A stretch of 25,018 nucleotides of DNA. Source: a virus. The stretch lies in the IMG/VR virus record IMGVR_UViG_3300042445_000200, positions 1 through 25,018 of that record. One strand, 5' to 3'. A program made the translations under genes and the position numbers. The notes under the pieces were generated by a model. It ran no database searches and was not told where the DNA came from. It saw nothing but the letters and a program-made list of their open reading frames with translations. Of the stretch, positions 1-13,949 are shown piece after piece; position 1 is the first letter of the stretch, and the number at the start of each line of letters is the position of its first letter.

Positions 1-2
1 GT

Positions 3-839
3 AGTTCAGGAGCATCCGGAAGTAGTGGTGCAAGTGGAGCATCAGGCGCAAGTGGTGCAAGTGGAGCATCAGGCGCAAGTGGTGCAAGTGGAGCATCAGG
101 CGCAAGTGGTGCAAGTGGAGCATCAGGTGCTTCTGGTAGTAGTGGTGCAAGTGGAGCATCAGGCGCAAGTGGAGCATCAGGTGCATCAGCCGCTACAGGA
201 GCAAGTGCGGCTACAGGTGCTACAGCGGCAACGGGTGCTACAGGAACTACTGGGGCTACTGCCGCAACAGGTGCAACAAGATTTATCCCACCAACAACAC
301 CGACTAACTTAGGTTACTTGAATCCAGGCTTTATCAATCCAAGTGCATTCTACAATACGAATGATCCAGCACAGAGTAAGTTTAATTGGGGAATGAAAGC
401 ATTCCAAACAGGGCCTACATTCAACGATACATTGTATAACACTAATCCAAATGCGCCTGATACACCATATGGATTACAACAAATGGCACGCCCATTGACT
501 ATGGCTGAAATCAATGATATGATATTGGGCAAAACAAGCACGACACCTAAAGTAGCACCAGCGACAAGACGAGTTCCTATCACTGACGCTAATCGTAATG
601 TTATGAATACTGATTACAGCAGAGTTGGACAACTACCAGTTATAGCACCAGTAGCACCAAGTCAAGTAACACCAACGCAAACATCAACATCACCTATCAA
701 CGCTGAACTAACAAGACAACTTGGTGCTAATTGGTTCAACAGACAACAAGCAGCCGCGGCAGCAGGTGATTGGGAAACATACTACGCAATACAACGACAA
801 GTGGATGCTATTATGAATCCATATGTTGATAACCCGTAA
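3..839 (+). CDS. Collagen-like Gly-X-Y repeat virion protein (5' end outside window)
   Basis: The reading frame is open from base 3 to the TAA at 839 (278 residues seen) and the N-terminus lies beyond the left edge. After two Ser codons come 20 unbroken Gly-X-Y triplets (bases 9-188), almost all Gly-Ala-Ser with two Gly-Ser-Ser. Ten further triplets follow (189-278), alternating Ala-Ala-Thr with Gly-Ala-Thr, Gly-Thr-Thr or Gly-Ala-Ser. The remaining 187 or so residues are non-repetitive, rich in Asn, Pro, Gln and Thr, and end in a Gln/Ala-rich helix-like stretch. Gly-X-Y runs are known from phage fibres and other virion surface proteins, where they form trimeric rods. Here a trimeric stalk with a C-terminal attachment or head domain is inferred. 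The next genes look like ejection proteins, which fits a virion role. The TTG at 318 is an internal Leu codon, not the start. Exact function unknown. Confidence 0.75.
   Translation, partial: SSGASGSSGASGASGASGASGASGASGASGASGASGASGASGASGSSGASGASGASGASGASAATGASAATGATAATGATGTTGATAATGATRFIPPTTPTNLGYLNPGFINPSAFYNTNDPAQSKFNWGMKAFQTGPTFNDTLYNTNPNAPDTPYGLQQMARPLTMAEINDMILGKTSTTPKVAPATRRVPITDANRNVMNTDYSRVGQLPVIAPVAPSQVTPTQTSTSPINAELTRQLGANWFNRQQAAAAAGDWETYYAIQRQVDAIMNPYVDNP
27..170 (+). repeat. 27-bp tandem repeat encoding Gly-Ala-Ser triplets
   Basis: A 27-base unit coding for three Gly-Ala-Ser triplets repeats head to tail from 27, 54 and 81, with a diverging fourth copy at 108 and another copy at 144-170. 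The units are nearly identical at DNA level, including third codon positions. This points to recent slippage or unequal exchange rather than only protein-level selection. Copy number is likely to vary between relatives, and assemblies may collapse it. Confidence 0.85.
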
Positions 840-1611: not shown

Positions 1612-4092
1612 ATGGCTCAATACGATACAATGAATTACGGAGTTGATTACGATCTCCAAGAAGAAGAACGCAAACGCAGAGAAGCCGCGTTATTAGCACA
1701 ACAGCAAGCACAAGCACAAGATATGGAAAACGGTGCGAACGCTGGTGGTATGCGTAGCCCAATGGACTTCGGTGACATTGTAGGTTCAGCGTTTAATCAA
1801 CGTCTTGGTGCTGCCCAAAATAGATTGAATGAAGCAACATCAGTATTCACAGATCCAGAAGAAGCATTACGAAAAAGATTAGGTGTTCAACAAGAAGAAT
1901 CTACTCCAGTAAAACAAACGATTACAACTAATCCACAAACTGGTGAGCAGACAGTAAAGATTGAGGGTAGCGCAAAAGATTTAAGTGCCGCTAATCCATT
2001 GACACCAACTGTAACAGGTCCTATTGCTCCTACAGAAGAACAACTACGCCCACAACAAGAACAGTTCGCACAACAGTTTCAACAATATCGTCAGCCAATG
2101 CCTGGTCAACCACCGGTCGCTAATCAGCAACCACCGGTCGCTATGCAACGACAAATGCCACCAAGTGCGCCTATTAGTCCTGAGATGGCTAATAGACCAC
2201 CTAACATTGGACAACCACCAACACCAGGACCTGGCGTTCAAATGGCAAGTGCGGCACCTGGCTTACCAAGAACACAACAACAACCTCCTCCAAGACCAGC
2301 TGTGCCAGGATTGGCAGCATTGCCTACATTAGCACAAATGGGTATGGCAGCGGATCAGGCACCAACTCCACCAGTACCTGCAGGTCCCCCAGCGTGGGTG
2401 CAGGCAGCAAATGATGCGGGTAATGATTTTAATAAACTATTAGATGTTGCGGCAAAACATCCTGAAAGCCGTGATGTTATAAACGATAAATTACAAAAAT
2501 CATTTGCTAACAAAACAAAAGAAGATGAAGCAAATCAGTTGTTCAAAGATGCAGCCAGTGGTGACTTAAAAGCACAGAACAAAATCTTTCAATCAATCAA
2601 GCCAGATACAGGCAAACAAAAAGAAGAAGTCACAGTCAATGATTATGTCAAAGCCTATATGTATAAGCGTTTAGGATTAGATGATTTAGCACGTGATGTT
2701 CAACTTAAAATATTGGGCAAAGAAACATTGTTTAGTCAAATGACTGTTGGTAATAGTAACTGGCAAGTTGAAACAGACAAGCAAGGTAATATTATTAGAG
2801 CCAAAGATGATGAAGGCAACTTTGCTACTGAAGCAACATTAAACAAACTAAGAGCAACTGGTCAGAAGTTTGGTAGTCAAGCATACAGCACAACTGGTGG
2901 CAGTATTACTATACCTGCAGGACATCCAGACGCTGGTGAAGAATACAGAACAGTGTTTAATTCAACAACTGGTAAGTTTGAGAATAAGATTATCACTGGT
3001 AAAAACGCTGGTAACACTTACACAGGCCCTGCAGGATTAGAGAAACGAGTTGCAACAAGTGCGGCTACAGCATTAAATGATGCATTCATCAAGTTCCAGA
3101 CAGAACCAACAACAGCAGCCGCTACTGAAGCATTAAAGACAGCAAGATTATTAGGCCCAGAAGAATACAATAAAGCATTACAGTTTATTCAACGCACACA
3201 GCCAGCGATTTACAATGATGTAAGTAAAACATTACCAGGTGGTTTGGCACCAAGCTCGTATGTTAATCCACCAAGTGGAACACCAAGTGGAACACCAAGC
3301 GCTCCAGTAGATCCTGGAGCATTGCGTAGGGCACAAGGTGATGTTCAATCACTAACTAATGAAATAGCATCATCGCAAAAGAAACCATTTGGTAATGCAC
3401 AACAACAAGCGGATCGTATGCGCTATTTGAATGATGAAATGGCTAAAGCACAACAACGATTACAACAAGCGCAAGGTGCACCAGCTGGTCAAGGCGGTGG
3501 AGCCCCAGCTGGTCAAGGTGAGGCTGGCTTATTAGAAAAAACTAAACAAGTAGAATCTAAGGTTGCTATTAATCAAAACTTAGAAGAACAGAAAAACAAG
3601 GTTCGTATGACGTTGCCTGCTACTGAGTTAAATGCTTCTACAATGTTAAACACATTGAATGATATTATGACGCATCCTGGCTTAGATAAAACTATTGGTA
3701 ATCCATTGATATTGAATACTCCATTAGCATTGATACCACAAAGTGATCGCCGTGAGTTTAAGCAGAAGTATCAACAACTTGCTGGTCAAGAGTTCTTGGC
3801 AGCGTTTGCTCAACTTAAAGGTGGTGGCTCTATTACTGAAGTTGAAGGTCTTAAAGCAGAACAAGCAATCAGTGCTCTTAAAGATACTGGTATTAGTCCA
3901 GCTGAGTTTAAGAAGAATGCTTGGATCTTGCAAGATGTTGTTAAACGAGGTATTGATAGTCAAAGAATATTAGTTGGTCAACCTCCAAAATATGCAGAAG
4001 CGCCGGATAGAGAAGCCGCAAAAGAATGGTTAAGAAATAATCCTAATCATCCTAAGGCTGCAGGCGTTCGTAATAAATTAGTAGGATTTTAA
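1612..4092 (+). CDS. Large putative ejection/internal virion protein
   Basis: The protein has 826 residues. The AAGGAA ribosome site overlaps the stop codon of the previous gene, which suggests translational coupling. Residues 1-60 are charged and Gln-rich. Residues 140-265 are a Pro/Gln low-complexity linker with short tandem repeats, including a duplicated 15-base unit near 2108-2142. Residues 265-500 look globular. Residues 550-640 combine Pro/Ser repeats (SGTP) with a coiled-coil-like Gln/Ala segment. The C-terminal block has EFLAAFAQLKGGGSITEVEG (727-746), which resembles a conserved element of putative DNA-transfer or internal virion proteins in short-tailed phages. No lytic transglycosylase or peptidase catalytic motif is visible. 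A role in DNA ejection or as an inner-core protein is inferred from size, composition and position. Confidence 0.55.
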   Translation: MAQYDTMNYGVDYDLQEEERKRREAALLAQQQAQAQDMENGANAGGMRSPMDFGDIVGSAFNQRLGAAQNRLNEATSVFTDPEEALRKRLGVQQEESTPVKQTITTNPQTGEQTVKIEGSAKDLSAANPLTPTVTGPIAPTEEQLRPQQEQFAQQFQQYRQPMPGQPPVANQQPPVAMQRQMPPSAPISPEMANRPPNIGQPPTPGPGVQMASAAPGLPRTQQQPPPRPAVPGLAALPTLAQMGMAADQAPTPPVPAGPPAWVQAANDAGNDFNKLLDVAAKHPESRDVINDKLQKSFANKTKEDEANQLFKDAASGDLKAQNKIFQSIKPDTGKQKEEVTVNDYVKAYMYKRLGLDDLARDVQLKILGKETLFSQMTVGNSNWQVETDKQGNIIRAKDDEGNFATEATLNKLRATGQKFGSQAYSTTGGSITIPAGHPDAGEEYRTVFNSTTGKFENKIITGKNAGNTYTGPAGLEKRVATSAATALNDAFIKFQTEPTTAAATEALKTARLLGPEEYNKALQFIQRTQPAIYNDVSKTLPGGLAPSSYVNPPSGTPSGTPSAPVDPGALRRAQGDVQSLTNEIASSQKKPFGNAQQQADRMRYLNDEMAKAQQRLQQAQGAPAGQGGGAPAGQGEAGLLEKTKQVESKVAINQNLEEQKNKVRMTLPATELNASTMLNTLNDIMTHPGLDKTIGNPLILNTPLALIPQSDRREFKQKYQQLAGQEFLAAFAQLKGGGSITEVEGLKAEQAISALKDTGISPAEFKKNAWILQDVVKRGIDSQRILVGQPPKYAEAPDREAAKEWLRNNPNHPKAAGVRNKLVGF

Positions 4093-4093
4093 T

Positions 4094-4906
4094 ATGGCAT
4101 TTGATCCAGACTCATTCATAGCCGGAACTCAATCACAAGCGGCACCAGAACTCGCTGAACCAACTGATAAAAAAAATAAGTTTAATCCAAGTGAATTTAT
4201 TAGAAAAGGTTCGGACTATGTTCCTATGCAAGAACCTACAATGGTTGCTGAAACAGAAGCACAAGCACAATCAATTAATCCTGATATGAATCTAATGCCA
4301 CAGGCTGTTAGTGTAGGAGCAAGATTAGCCGAACCAGCATATGATATTGCAAAAGGTGTAGGTGGAGTAATAGCCGGTAATGCAAAAGACGCATACAAAA
4401 TGGGTAATATTTTATACAAAAATGTGACACCTGGTGTTATTGGCACAGTTATTAGTAGTCCAATTACGTATGCTAAAGATTTTGCATCAGCCTATGTGCA
4501 AGGACATCCTTTAATGAGTAAGTTAGGTCAAACTACTCCACAACAAGCAGTTCAAGCAGGTGCAGGATATGCTAAAAATATCGGTGGTCGTATTTTAGCT
4601 GGTGCTGTCGCTCCCGAAAGTATTGCGTTGATGCCCTATCAAATGGCAGCGTATGAACAAGAAAAGATTAGGGCTAATCCTAATGCTCCTGGATTACAAT
4701 ATAATCCTTATGCTCAAACAGTAAGAGGTGAAGCAACAACTCAAAATCAAGCAGGCGCTGCCAATCAAATGAGAACCGTAGCAAATATGCCATATGGTAA
4801 TGTTAATCCGCAAGAACGAAATATACTTGAACAAGATAGAATGATGCGTGAAAACATTCGTAAGAAAGCATATCAAAGAGTTATGGGCCCCGTTGCCCCT
4901 CAATAA
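4094..4906 (+). CDS. Putative virion protein, unknown function
   Basis: The protein has 270 residues and begins one base after the preceding stop (TAATATG), so it is likely co-translated with the large 1612 gene. The N-terminus carries two copies of a short motif, FDPDSFIA (3-10) and FNPSEFIR (30-37), separated by a Pro/Lys/Thr linker. Such F(D/N)P-x-x-F-I motifs look like docking peptides. The middle (about 75-180) is Ala/Gly/Val-rich with moderately hydrophobic helical stretches, and the C-terminus (about 200-270) is Asn/Gln/Arg-rich. It could be a third ejection protein that inserts in the membrane, but no family is recognised. Confidence 0.5.
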   Translation: MAFDPDSFIAGTQSQAAPELAEPTDKKNKFNPSEFIRKGSDYVPMQEPTMVAETEAQAQSINPDMNLMPQAVSVGARLAEPAYDIAKGVGGVIAGNAKDAYKMGNILYKNVTPGVIGTVISSPITYAKDFASAYVQGHPLMSKLGQTTPQQAVQAGAGYAKNIGGRILAGAVAPESIALMPYQMAAYEQEKIRANPNAPGLQYNPYAQTVRGEATTQNQAGAANQMRTVANMPYGNVNPQERNILEQDRMMRENIRKKAYQRVMGPVAPQ

Positions 4907-4916
4907 ATAATACACT
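4904..4916 (+). promoter_or_regulatory. TAAATA motif 7 bases before the Dps start
   Basis: ATAAATAATACACTATG joins the stop codon of the upstream gene (the TAA at 4904-4906 is part of TAAATA) to the ATG at 4917. No Shine-Dalgarno site is present. If transcription starts at T4-late spacing, the mRNA would have only about two leader bases. Confidence 0.4.
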
Positions 4917-5348
4917 ATGACTACACAAGAACAACTAACACAAACCTTCAACAATAACTTTGTTGCTTACTATCGCTCACACGTAGCGCACATAAACATT
5001 ATGGGTAGAAACTTTCGCAGTGACCATAAACTATTGCAAGGTATCTATGAAAGACGACAAGCACAAATAGATATTCTTGGAGAACTATTACGCACATTAG
5101 ATGATTATATGCCTTGTGAAATACAAGATGTATTAAATCAAAGTGAAATAGGCACAGGCATTTTTGAAGAAGATGCAGATGGATTTTTAGAAGGAGTTAA
5201 AGATGATTTGGAACTACTTAAAGGAACATACGAAGAACTTATGGTTATTGCTGAAGACGAAGGTCACAAGGAAATAGCCAACTACGCACAAGACCAAATA
5301 TTAGATTTGGCAAAGAGTATTTGGATGCTAAACTCTACACTTAGTTAA
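4917..5348 (+). CDS. dps: Dps-like miniferritin (phage-encoded)
   Basis: The protein has 143 residues, slightly shorter than most bacterial Dps proteins (150-170). The sequence follows the Dps four-helix pattern. Helix A ends in HVAHINIMGRNF, matching the family's HWN(V/I)xGxxF. Helix B carries DHKLLQGIYERRQAQIDILGE. Helix D ends in ILDLAKSIWMLNSTLS, matching the Dps ending (W)MLRSTL. The ferroxidase ligands known for Dps fall at the right spacing: H25, H37 (+12), D52 (+27) and E56 (+31). The extra Asp often found four residues after the second His is Gln41 here. There is no Lys-rich N-terminal tail, so direct DNA binding is uncertain. Family members form 12-subunit shells that oxidise and store iron and limit Fenton damage. 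The gene sits among virion genes behind a TAAATA motif, so late expression is inferred. Function on host DNA, phage DNA or in the virion is unknown. Confidence 0.8.
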   Translation: MTTQEQLTQTFNNNFVAYYRSHVAHINIMGRNFRSDHKLLQGIYERRQAQIDILGELLRTLDDYMPCEIQDVLNQSEIGTGIFEEDADGFLEGVKDDLELLKGTYEELMVIAEDEGHKEIANYAQDQILDLAKSIWMLNSTLS

Positions 5349-5356
5349 GGGAACAT

Positions 5357-6316
5357 ATGAGTTTTTCTACAATAAGAAGAAATAATCAAAGTGCGGCAAG
5401 GTCAAATCGTAGAGTAGTGCCTCCTCCACCAATGAGAAGACCTATTCCTAAGCCACAAATGAGTAGGCCTATACAACCAGTAAGACCACCTACTGGTATG
5501 CCTCAACAAATAAGTGCTCCTACTGGTTTGCCAAATCAAATGCTACCTCCATTAGGTATGCCAAATCAAATTCAACAACCTACTGGCTTACCAAATATTA
5601 TGCAACCTCCATTGGGTTTGCCAAATATAAATCAACAACCTACTGGATTGCCTCCTACACAAACGCAATTGCCAACTCCACCGGTAACTATGCCAGTAGA
5701 ACAAAGTCCATCATTGTTTGCTCCACCAGTTCAACAACCAATTCAGCAACAACCAGCGATTGCTCCAGTATTTCAACAAACACAACAACCTGTTGCTCCA
5801 CAACAAACACAACAACCTGTTGCTCCACAACAAACACAACCAATGCAACAACCGAATCCATTCGCTAATGAACCAGGTCGTGATAGTAATGGTATGTTGA
5901 TTCCAGGATATGGAGAACCTCCACCAGGCACATTCTTATCACAACCAGTAGATAAGCCTATGATGCAACAACCGGCGCAACAAAATCAGCGTGATCCACA
6001 ATATATTGGTATGCCTGATGAAATGTATGCCAGTATGATTAAAGATAAGCAAATGAATAATGGACAAGGACCAATGGATATGATGGTTCGTCCTTGGATG
6101 CAATGGAATAGCCAGCAACAAGTAGCAGGTCCTATAGCACCTGATTATCAATATAACAGTGATAACACTATGCGTTCAATAAGTGGAATGGGCACTGGTC
6201 TTGCTGAAGGTGTGCGATATAAACAAAGCCAACAGTTTGATCCAATAACAGGACAATGGGGTATGCCTGATGGAACAGGTGGAAAGTTTATGCCAGGAGT
6301 AAGTATAGGTTATTAA
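5357..6316 (+). CDS. Pro/Gln/Met-rich repeat protein, probable virion component
   Basis: The protein has 319 residues. The start is set by AAGGGAACATATG, where the AAGG overlaps the stop codon of the Dps gene 8 bases upstream. An Arg/Pro-rich N-terminus (1-44) is followed by six tandem decapeptides of the type P(T/L)G(L/M)PNxxxx (45-104), then a Gln/Pro region with QQTQQPVAP repeats (about 140-161). The C-terminal half (about 165-319) is less repetitive, with PGYGEPPPGTF and a Met/Gly/Gln-rich segment. No domain is recognised. Extended Pro/Gln proteins of this type occur among structural and ejection proteins of short-tailed phages. A disordered virion protein is inferred, but this is weak. 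Confidence 0.5.
   Translation: MSFSTIRRNNQSAARSNRRVVPPPPMRRPIPKPQMSRPIQPVRPPTGMPQQISAPTGLPNQMLPPLGMPNQIQQPTGLPNIMQPPLGLPNINQQPTGLPPTQTQLPTPPVTMPVEQSPSLFAPPVQQPIQQQPAIAPVFQQTQQPVAPQQTQQPVAPQQTQPMQQPNPFANEPGRDSNGMLIPGYGEPPPGTFLSQPVDKPMMQQPAQQNQRDPQYIGMPDEMYASMIKDKQMNNGQGPMDMMVRPWMQWNSQQQVAGPIAPDYQYNSDNTMRSISGMGTGLAEGVRYKQSQQFDPITGQWGMPDGTGGKFMPGVSIGY
5489..5668 (+). repeat. Six tandem 30-bp units coding for decapeptide PxGxPNxxxx
   Basis: Six consecutive 10-residue units (residues 45-104 of the 5357 gene) share Pro1, Gly3 and Pro5, usually with Asn6. Units alternate between PTG and PLG from the second to the fifth copy, suggesting a 20-residue higher-order repeat. Third codon positions differ between units, so the array is older than the 27-bp repeat at 27-170. 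Confidence 0.8.
5774..5839 (+). repeat. 27-bp tandem repeat coding for QQTQQPVAP
   Basis: Two identical 27-base copies (5774-5800 and 5801-5827) and a 12-base partial third copy lie inside the Pro/Gln-rich gene. Identity at third positions points to recent duplication. Confidence 0.8.
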
Positions 6317-6400: not shown

Positions 6401-6889
6401 TTAAGCGTTTAACTTTTTATAAGCAAAACTACCACGAAGAATATAACCATTGCGTTCGTGTAGTTTTAGAAACGCAGATTGGTCTCTACGCATTGTAGAA
6501 CTACATACTATATTAACTTCACACAATCGTGCCCAATCTTCCCACATTGTTAGCATATCTTTTACTAACTCTATTCGTAGTCGGCTTGATAAACTCATAT
6601 CTAAATGAGCAATACGAACAGTTACCATTTCATCATCACTCCATACAGCAAATTCTCCCCTTGTAGCCCAAGTGTAGGCTAATAGTTTGTTATCTTCATC
6701 TACGGCAATACTAACAAGTTGTGTGAGAGGTCCGTAAAACTGATTGATAACAGCGAGTGTAAGATTACGCTGATAGATTACGGGTTCTGGAGTAAAGATG
6801 CCATCAGTTTCAATAAGAAAATGCTCAATAGCCATATCAACTATTGGTTTTACATCTAATCCATTTGCGGGGCGCCAAGTATATTTCAT
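6401..6889 (-). CDS. GNAT-like acetyltransferase-fold protein
   Basis: The protein has 162 residues and is the only gene on the minus strand. The start is placed at 6889 because AAGGAATAGAAATG stands directly before it, the same ribosome site as the genes at 12420 and 16651. A start seven codons further out (6910) would bury that site. The N-terminus YTWRPANGLDVKPIVDMA resembles the first strand and helix of GNAT proteins, and the end (FLKLHERNGYILRGSFAYKKL) resembles the GNAT C-terminal element. The central acetyl-CoA loop (R/QxxGxG/A) is not evident, so it may not be catalytic. Phage T7 gp13, a virion-assembly protein, has a similar diverged fold, and the virion-gene setting here fits such a role. 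Acetylation of a host target is the alternative. Confidence 0.5.
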   Translation of the reverse strand: MKYTWRPANGLDVKPIVDMAIEHFLIETDGIFTPEPVIYQRNLTLAVINQFYGPLTQLVSIAVDEDNKLLAYTWATRGEFAVWSDDEMVTVRIAHLDMSLSSRLRIELVKDMLTMWEDWARLCEVNIVCSSTMRRDQSAFLKLHERNGYILRGSFAYKKLNA

Positions 6890-6910
6890 TTCTATTCCTT
6901 TGTAATACAA

Positions 6911-6951: not shown

Positions 6952-8073
6952 ATGAGATTTCATATATTAGGTTTGCCCCACACCGTTACAAGTAAAGAAT
7001 ATGTCGCTTGCGCTTACACACAAAAAGTGTGGAAGTTTGGTAAGATGATGAAAAAGTTAGGGCACGAAATAATACATTATGGTCACGAAGATAGCGATGT
7101 GATTTGTGATGAACACGTTACAGTTATTGATAACAGTGATTTACAAAAAGCATATGGATCATACGACTGGCGTAAGAACTTCTTTAAGTTTGACAACAAC
7201 GACCACGCTTACACTACATTTTTCTCTAATGCTATTAGAGAAGTAGGTAAAAGAAAACAAAAAAACGATTTTATACTACCATTCTGGGGCAGTGGAGTAA
7301 AACCTATATGTGACGCACATACAGATATGATATGTGTAGAGCCGGGCATTGGATATGCTGGTGGTCATTTCGCAAAATGGAAGATATTTGAGAGTTATGC
7401 TATCTATCACGCCTATTGTGGATTACAAAACGTAGGATCTTGCAATCAAGGATGGTATGATGTTGTTATACCAAACTACTTTGACCCAGATGACTTTACA
7501 TACAAAGATGTAAAGCAAGATTACTATTTGTTTTTGGGTAGAGTATATGAGGGCAAGGGTATTCATATCGTTAATCAAATAGCAGAGAAACTACCACATA
7601 TCAATATTATCGTTGCAGGACAGAATCCAGACAATATCAAGTTCCCTGACAATGTATTGTTTGCTGGTTATGCTGATACAGAAACACGCAGAGAACTAAT
7701 GGCTAATGCTAAGGGTGCGTTCGTTCCCAGTCAGTATGTAGAACCATTCGGTGGTGTTCAAGTAGAACTATTGATGAGTGGCACACCTACAATCACAACA
7801 GATTGGGGAAGTTTTGTAGAGAACAACATTCACGGAGTCACAGGATATCGTTGTAGAACGTTTGAGCAGTTTATATGGGCAACAGAGAACATAGATAAGA
7901 TTAAGCCAATAGATTGTAGAACTTGGGCAGAGAACTATACATTAGACAAAGTAGGTCCAATGTATGAGGAATACTTTCGTAGCATACTAAACATACAAAC
8001 AGGCAATGGATGGTATGAGCCTAATCCAAATAGAACCAACTTAGATTGGCTAAAGAAAGATTATCCTAAATAA
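6952..8073 (+). CDS. GT4-type glycosyltransferase (GT-B fold)
   Basis: The protein has 373 residues, a normal length for GT4. The N-terminal half starts MRFHILGLPHT, an acceptor-domain-like beginning. The C-terminal Rossmann half carries YLFLGRVYEGKGIHIVNQIA (GRxxxxKG donor-binding element), VLFAGYADTETRREL, and E264PFGGVQVE272, the family's EX7E motif in which the first Glu contacts the donor sugar nucleotide. It should therefore transfer a sugar with a retaining mechanism. There is no signal peptide, so it acts in the cytoplasm. Substrate is unknown: modified phage DNA, a virion protein or host surface glycan precursors are all possible. It has its own TAAATA motif and is divergent from the GNAT-like gene, suggesting an accessory insertion in the virion cluster. 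Confidence 0.85.
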   Translation: MRFHILGLPHTVTSKEYVACAYTQKVWKFGKMMKKLGHEIIHYGHEDSDVICDEHVTVIDNSDLQKAYGSYDWRKNFFKFDNNDHAYTTFFSNAIREVGKRKQKNDFILPFWGSGVKPICDAHTDMICVEPGIGYAGGHFAKWKIFESYAIYHAYCGLQNVGSCNQGWYDVVIPNYFDPDDFTYKDVKQDYYLFLGRVYEGKGIHIVNQIAEKLPHINIIVAGQNPDNIKFPDNVLFAGYADTETRRELMANAKGAFVPSQYVEPFGGVQVELLMSGTPTITTDWGSFVENNIHGVTGYRCRTFEQFIWATENIDKIKPIDCRTWAENYTLDKVGPMYEEYFRSILNIQTGNGWYEPNPNRTNLDWLKKDYPK

Positions 8074-12419: not shown

Positions 12420-13949
12420 ATGACTTGGAATATAATAAATGGAAATAACACAGAGGTATTAAAACAATACCCAGACAATAGTTTTGATGCGGTCGTCACA
12501 GACCCACCATATGGTATCTCATTCTTAGGTAAAGACTGGGATAGTAAAAAAGCAACAGAAACTACATCAAAACTAACAGCACTACATAACTTACCATCAG
12601 GTATGAAACATACAAGTTTAGCAAATGACTTAGAGTTTCAAAAATGGATGAGTGAAGTATTCAGTGAATGTATTAGGGTATTAAAGCCAGGTGGTCATCT
12701 ACTTGCGTTCAGCGCGGCAAGAACATATCACCATATGGCAATGGCAGCACAGTTTGCAGGCTTTGAGATTAGAGACCAGATTATGTGGATCTATGGTAGT
12801 GGCTTTCCTAAATCACAAGATGTTGGGAGACAGATACATAAAAAGGCTAATGGTAAGCCAGACAAACAACGATTTGATCCTGCTATTATGATTAAAGAAG
12901 ATGGTAAGTATCGTCATCCAGAAACAAATAAACTATACAATATATTACCTGATATCAATGGTGATAATCTAAAAGTAAGCCACGAAGGCACAAAGTATAG
13001 CGTCATCTTTGAGGAAGTTATAGAAGTAGATAGTGATTGGAGTGGTTGGGGCACACAACTAAAACCAGCACACGAACCAATCGTTATGGCACGAAAGCCT
13101 GTTATTGGTAGTATTAGAGAGAATGTATTAGAACACGGCACTGGCGCAATCAATATTGATGCTACAAGAGTTGGTGACGACATAATGCCTATAGGTGCAC
13201 ACGAACAAACAAAAAATCTATTTGACCCTAATAAAAAAAGCGCATATTCCGAAAAGACAAACATAGGTCGCTTCCCAGCAAATGTTATACACGATGGTAG
13301 TGATGAAGTGGTTAGTTTATTCCCACATTCTACAAGTGGTGCAAGAAAATCAACACATAAAATAAAAGGATTAGATACTGGCGAACAACGAGCAGTATTT
13401 GGTGATGATGCTATTAGTGGCAAATACAATGTTCAGCCATTTACAGACGCACAAGCAGATGAAGGTTCAGCAGCCAGATTTTTCTATTGTCCTAAGGTCA
13501 GTCGCAAAGAACGACATATTGGATTTGATCCTAATAGTCAAGGTGTTATTATAGATAGTGAAGTATTTGGTAAAACACCTGTATGTTTAGATTGCGGTAA
13601 AACTCGCAATGGATCTACAAAACACGATGGATGCGATCCAGAAAATATTGGATTCCAAGAGCGCAGAACAGAGCGTAGTAGTGATGTAGGAAACAATCAT
13701 CCAACAGTAAAGCCAATAGAACTAATGAAATATCTTATCAAGTTAGTCACACCACCTAATGGTCATATATTAGATCCGTTTAATGGCAGTGGCTCAACAG
13801 GATGTGCGGCAGTAGAACTTGGCTTTGACTATACTGGCATAGAACTTGACCCAAACTATGTTGAGATAGCAACTAAACGCATTAGTCATTGGGAGCAAGA
13901 GTGTAAGCCCAAGACTACATACAATAATCTATTTGAGGAAATAATATGA
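12420..13949 (+). CDS. Orphan DNA methyltransferase (beta-class, N6A/N4C type)
   Basis: The protein has 509 residues. The start follows AAGGAATAGAAATG. Motif IV DPPYG (28-32) comes first and motif I DPFNGSGSTG (452-461) near the C-terminus, the order of beta-class amino-methyltransferases. Supporting pieces are RVLKPGGHLLAF, HMAMAAQFAGFEIRDQI, GRFPANVIHDGS, NHPTVKPIELM and GIELDPNYV. The long middle insertion with ARFFYCPKVSRKER is common in phage versions. Within it, C389-x2-C392-x9-H402-x2-C405 looks like a zinc-binding knuckle. It should methylate adenine N6 or cytosine N4 at an unknown site. There is no restriction gene nearby, so protection from host restriction or a packaging/regulatory mark is likely. 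It lies between terL and portal and overlaps the next gene by ATGA. Confidence 0.92.
   Translation: MTWNIINGNNTEVLKQYPDNSFDAVVTDPPYGISFLGKDWDSKKATETTSKLTALHNLPSGMKHTSLANDLEFQKWMSEVFSECIRVLKPGGHLLAFSAARTYHHMAMAAQFAGFEIRDQIMWIYGSGFPKSQDVGRQIHKKANGKPDKQRFDPAIMIKEDGKYRHPETNKLYNILPDINGDNLKVSHEGTKYSVIFEEVIEVDSDWSGWGTQLKPAHEPIVMARKPVIGSIRENVLEHGTGAINIDATRVGDDIMPIGAHEQTKNLFDPNKKSAYSEKTNIGRFPANVIHDGSDEVVSLFPHSTSGARKSTHKIKGLDTGEQRAVFGDDAISGKYNVQPFTDAQADEGSAARFFYCPKVSRKERHIGFDPNSQGVIIDSEVFGKTPVCLDCGKTRNGSTKHDGCDPENIGFQERRTERSSDVGNNHPTVKPIELMKYLIKLVTPPNGHILDPFNGSGSTGCAAVELGFDYTGIELDPNYVEIATKRISHWEQECKPKTTYNNLFEEII

Follow-up and report, generated by a model that had tools for sequence, protein, structure and literature searches.

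A Dps miniferritin is a fixed, syntenic core gene of an uncultured short-tailed phage lineage

Dps cages take both Fenton reactants out of circulation: they oxidize Fe(II), with H2O2 as the preferred oxidant, and retain the iron as a ferric product. Dps genes are already known from Lactobacillus phages, gut phages, SU10-like phages, Synechococcus phage S-EIVl and uncultured freshwater phages. For the gut phages ('Gratiaviridae', 36 other genomes) and the Lactobacillus phages, a role in oxidative-stress tolerance during infection has been proposed (PMC8008677, PMC6669764); these are other phages with other hosts, and the Lactobacillus genes lie near DNA-metabolism genes. Ferritin-type genes of uncultured freshwater phages have been interpreted as ROS defence (Kavagutti et al. 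2019, PMC6802176); the ferritin passages of that report list the gene among many ROS genes and do not deal with core status, synteny or ligand conservation.

Two described phage systems come closest to the locus studied here, which lies in a viral stretch of 25,018 nucleotides (IMG/VR record IMGVR_UViG_3300042445_000200; 'the window'). A Dps-domain gene is present in all five C3 phages compared in an earlier study (PMC4281155). The Dps-domain proteins of SU10-like phages include SU10 gp67 and Cronobacter GAP52 gp062, the latter with the same four iron ligands as the window protein; the Pfam portal and capsid families that the window matches likewise come from this phage group. Their Dps gene differs in being a middle gene, beside thioredoxin and nucleotide-metabolism genes, and in encoding a protein only about 25% identical to ours. 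The best match among 50,697 phage records is the Dps of Synechococcus phage S-EIVl (KJ410740; 29-33% identity), which differs in carrying a 40-residue N-terminal tail with basic residues; its gene adjoins a sulfate adenylyltransferase gene, outside any virion cluster. We found no earlier description of a lineage with Dps as a fixed, syntenic virion-cluster gene.

Family, fold and iron ligands of the phage protein

The open reading frame at 4917..5348 (+ strand, ATG start, TAA stop) encodes 143 aa and, as judged from sequence similarity and the predicted fold, is a member of the Dps miniferritin family. This identity had been claimed in a preliminary description of the DNA, and the similarity is far above chance: the protein scores 45.1 bits against Pfam PF00210 (Ferritin; cut-off 24.5) and matches PHROG 3636 (E 4e-24), and its best solved relatives in a phmmer search of the PDB are HP-NAP (1ji4, H. 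pylori NapA; E 1.2e-11) and H. cinaedi CAIP. A profile search of PDB sequences likewise returned Dps-type chains, HP-NAP and CAIP, at 1e-18 to 1e-19. Scores against the NCBIfam equivalog models for E. coli Dps and halophile DpsA were far below cut-off, which places the phage protein outside these two subfamilies. The closest match in BFVD is an uncultured-phage Dps (A0A6J7WGJ1, 46% identity) that is possibly from the same or a near lineage.

Whether the chain folds as a four-helix ferritin bundle had been raised as a check on the assignment. The AlphaFold2 single-chain model, built with 17 relatives (mean pLDDT 94, pTM 0.89), predicts the full Dps fold: helices at residues 3-27, 33-60, 69-75, 87-114 and 118-142 make up the four-helix bundle and the BC helix, the short, Dps-typical helix 69-75 sitting between the second and third long helices. 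Aligned to solved Dps chains with VIA-align, the model gives Z 20-22 and rmsd 1.3-1.7 Å over 142-143 residues; these matches span the whole chain and include the Dps proteins of Streptococcus suis, Listeria innocua, Thermosynechococcus, H. pylori and others. The closest folds are L. innocua Dps and S. suis Dpr (Z 22, rmsd 1.3 Å, 143 residues aligned), which have an inter-subunit ferroxidase site, as predicted for the phage Dps. They differ in being cellular proteins with about 20% identity to it, and Dpr is longer.

By sequence, the best matches among solved structures are HP-NAP and CAIP (28-30% identity over the whole chain). They share with the phage protein its length, the lack of a DNA-binding tail and the ligand numbering: the iron ligands of HP-NAP are the residues numbered 25, 37, 52 and 56 (PMC4192664). 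In the window the corresponding codons, all on the + strand, are those of His25 (4989..4991) and His37 (5025..5027) and of Asp52 (5070..5072) and Glu56 (5082..5084), the last two predicted to act from the partner subunit. The preliminary description had placed intact ferroxidase ligands at these residues and had asked whether close relatives keep them; the residues lie in HP-NAP register, and all four are unvarying across 71 distinct related phage coding sequences. His22, which in apo HP-NAP forms a salt bridge with Asp52 (PMC4192664), is likewise invariant in the 71 sequences. The four ligands are also common to three unrelated phage Dps proteins, from S-EIVl, GAP52 and Lactobacillus phage 3-521. 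Since all primary ligands are kept, the predicted protein most likely oxidizes and stores Fe(II).

The predicted ferroxidase site, with its primary ligands intact, is nevertheless not fully canonical. Trp26, which is conserved in Dps and HP-NAP, and which in HP-NAP lies next to His25 and swings away on iron binding (PMC4192664), is replaced by Val, Ile or Leu in every member of the lineage. We do not hold this change against Dps membership because the Trp, though common, is not a primary ligand and is missing from S-EIVl as well; GAP52 Dps, unlike the lineage proteins, keeps it. Position 41, a Glu in HP-NAP and CAIP, varies among Q, E, G, K and N, and most members have a non-carboxylate residue there. 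At pore I, HP-NAP Asp127 corresponds to D126 of the phage protein, which is D or E in all members, whereas the pore residue Asp126 of HP-NAP and CAIP is an invariant Gln125 in the phage lineage. The loss of Trp26 and the variable position 41 may mean weaker binding of the second iron or weaker radical quenching; together with Gln125, they might affect how iron enters, how the second iron site works or how radicals are quenched.

The same three changes are what might be expected of a moonlighting scaffold, a cage with a structural or regulatory part to play that is no longer an efficient ferroxidase. We consider this very unlikely, since none of the 71 sequences departs from the four primary ligands or from His22 despite identity as low as 54%, a pattern that would be unexpected were metal binding dispensable.

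Position and retention of the gene

Short gaps separate the Dps gene from both of its neighbours. Upstream lies a gene for a putative ejection protein of 826 aa (1612..4092, + strand), which matches PHROG 2534 ('released from the phage upon host infection') at E 1.7e-11. It is followed directly by a 270-aa open reading frame (4094..4906, +) that has no family match and whose stop lies 10 bases ahead of the Dps start; judged from its position, it is probably a virion or ejection gene. Directly 3' of Dps is a Pro/Gln-rich open reading frame of 319 aa (5357..6316, +), also without a family match. The gene thus sits between an open reading frame adjoining the putative ejection protein and the Pro/Gln-rich one, in agreement with its reported position in the virion cluster. 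The conserved 3' neighbour is a convergent GNAT-fold acetyltransferase-like gene (6401..6910, - strand), whose AlphaFold2 model (pLDDT 92) matches GNAT structures with Z 17. Elsewhere in the window, Pfam matches include an SU10-type portal, an SU10-type capsid and a Terminase_6 large subunit.

Several features of these surroundings are worth recording in their own right. The 319-aa protein has repeated 'PTGLPN/PPLGLPN' units, and an open reading frame recognizable as its relative lies between Dps and the GNAT gene in few relatives only. The GNAT-fold protein has no Pfam match, and 12 invariant residues are common to 13 relatives. Directly 3' of terL is an N6/N4 DNA methyltransferase gene (12420-13949, + strand) that in many relatives is missing from this place or far diverged. 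Window positions 1-839 (+) cover the last part of a gene whose 1051-aa product has long Gly-Ala/Ser (collagen-like) repeats; the protein is complete in a related locus (L089, 639-3794), whose copy appears to be a few repeats longer than that of the window.

At least 161 stretches in the viral collection encode a relative of the phage Dps, and among full-length members identity to the window protein drops to 54%. Sequence comparison indicates that the gene is under purifying selection, with a median pairwise dN/dS of 0.21 and values of 0.07-0.16 against the nearest relatives. Across 101 distinct loci, the position of Dps at the end of the virion cluster is conserved: the gene always points in the direction of the virion genes, adjoins a convergent gene or is one gene away from it, and with few exceptions either closes the virion operon or stands one gene before its end. 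The convergent GNAT-fold gene lies beyond Dps in 93 of the 101 loci, downstream within 4 kb in 91 and overlapping by about 1 base in two.

To avoid a choice of contigs biased toward Dps, we also fetched contigs via the terminase (n = 80). Dps is present on all 25 of these that have at least 6 kb upstream of terL, and on 38 of the 80 overall; none of the other 42 extends more than 0.8 kb beyond the GNAT gene without Dps, and some of them have no GNAT gene within the few kb present. Dps and TerL distances are correlated (Mantel r 0.48; none of 2000 permutations as high), which fits mostly shared descent. In the nearest other group, the sister lineage around MW202484, whose terminase is 50% and whose capsid is 60% identical to those of the window, a ferritin-type gene was found in 0 of 25 records. 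These results place Dps in the core genome of a single uncultured lineage of short-tailed phages, in which its position is fixed and syntenic; the simplest history is a single gain before the lineage diversified, followed by strict retention.

This distribution also bears on the idea that binning error or recent uptake from a host brought in a gene that does nothing for the phage. Bacteria, our control genomes among them, commonly carry Dps, yet about 100 distinct loci sampled across many metagenomes have the gene in one and the same position, and it shares a vertical signal with TerL and is under purifying selection; the terminase-selected contigs and the syntenic loci refute a functionless host gene, to which we assign a negligible probability. 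Phage-specific patterns run against 84,980 species genomes, a scan that a distant source could escape, met no close cellular relative. Matches on plasmids are only 21-24% identical, and S-EIVl Dps used as bait in genomes gave a single match, at 29%.

The host itself is only faintly indicated. The window has no nucleotide match among the 50,697 phage records, no tRNA was found, and none of 19 relatives has a psbA/psbD-type gene. A glycosyltransferase encoded at 6952-8073 (+ strand), present in few relatives, is about 70% identical to those of the T4-like Synechococcus phages S-CAM7 and ACG-2014f and is likely the product of phage-to-phage transfer; this gene alone hints at a possible cyanobacterial host. 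A freshwater habitat is suggested in part by the nearest named relatives, which occur in freshwater phages, rather than by sample records.

The fixed place inside the virion and ejection cluster raises the possibility that the Dps cage or its subunits travel in the virion, either inside the head or alongside the ejection proteins, and would guard the packaged genome or enter the cell with the DNA. Such packaging would explain both the place of the gene and its strict retention, and would provide a ready-made sink for iron and peroxide at the very start of infection. Three proteins of uncultured phages named 'prohead protease' in BFVD (A0A6J7WPK9, A0A6J7XDU5 and A0A6J7WIS1; ranks 7, 10 and 12, as read from the match table only) match the Dps model over its full length, which would link a Dps domain with the heads of these other phages; head-targeted Dps proteins may exist there. 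In SU10, the Dps-domain protein gp67 was detected by mass spectrometry in concentrated phage, but this sample was PEG-precipitated rather than CsCl-purified and also contained DNA polymerase and other non-virion proteins (PMC4281155). A later structural study of SU10 names only gp20-24 as ejection proteins and makes no mention of gp67 or Dps (PMC9509320), and our literature search found no ferritin-like protein in virion proteomes. In the lineage studied here no packaging signal or fusion is apparent, nearly all members ending at residue 142-146. On balance we think a virion-borne Dps unlikely.

Expression and proposed role in the infected cell

The preliminary description had reported a late-type promoter motif ahead of Dps, a claim that did not survive comparison with shuffled sequence. 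This sequence, AATAAATA at 4902-4909, shares bases with the stop codon of the preceding gene. Near-matches to TATAAATA number 51 across the window, this one included, compared with 54.9 in shuffles. The 60 bases 5' of Dps show no conservation among relatives: the gene that ends there is not the same from one relative to the next, even though Dps starts close behind it. With the motif at chance level and its surroundings not conserved, we reject a T4-type late promoter for Dps. Sigma-70-like sites are absent near the Dps start and at background level in the window. The lack of an evident promoter, together with the short gap to the upstream gene, makes run-through transcription with the virion genes the likely mode of expression, and from the position of the gene the timing is most likely late.

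The account we favour, and think probably correct, is that a Dps cage made with the virion proteins oxidizes and stores Fe(II) in the infected cell. Twelve subunits would assemble into the cage, and at each two-fold interface His25 and His37 of one subunit and Asp52 and Glu56 of the other would bind Fe(II). The bound Fe(II) would be oxidized, preferentially with H2O2, and the ferric mineral kept inside. Produced late, along with the virion proteins, by run-through of the virion operon, the cage would remain in the infected cell as a sink for iron and peroxide, so that phage DNA and virion proteins would suffer less Fenton damage as host metabolism fails. Protection of this kind is the likely benefit, and the ferritin passages of earlier reports propose the like for other phage ferritins (PMC6802176, PMC8008677).

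Coating of DNA is an unlikely function for this protein. The E. coli-type DNA-binding subtype is marked by a basic N- or C-terminal tail, which the phage sequence lacks: the phage N terminus reads MTTQEQLTQ, the phage C terminus stops at the last helix, and there is no basic tail at either end. The net charge is about -15 (-12 to -20 per subunit across members), and in this strong acidity, as in being phage-encoded, the lineage Dps differs from HP-NAP and CAIP. The missing basic tail had been cited earlier as an argument against DNA coating, and the non-basic termini and the net charge uphold it.

The stored iron might instead serve the phage in another way. In the spirit of the Ferrojan-horse idea, the cage could supply iron to tail proteins, or it could withdraw or hoard host iron and so starve iron-dependent host functions. 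The intact ferroxidase ligands and the expected expression of Dps with tail and virion genes, judged from its position, are compatible with such piracy, but sequence alone cannot separate storage for protection from storage for supply; we regard piracy as quite unlikely and retain a protective iron and peroxide sink as the preferred reading.

Phage Dps is usually listed as a scattered auxiliary gene; here it is a core gene of a widespread uncultured lineage. Because all close relatives keep the gene with unchanged iron ligands, it probably matters for infection. Its core status, the purifying selection, the retained ligands and the existence of a sister lineage without it suggest that control of iron and peroxide may be a constant need of the infection cycle in this lineage, and the two lineages, one with and one without Dps, offer a clean comparison.
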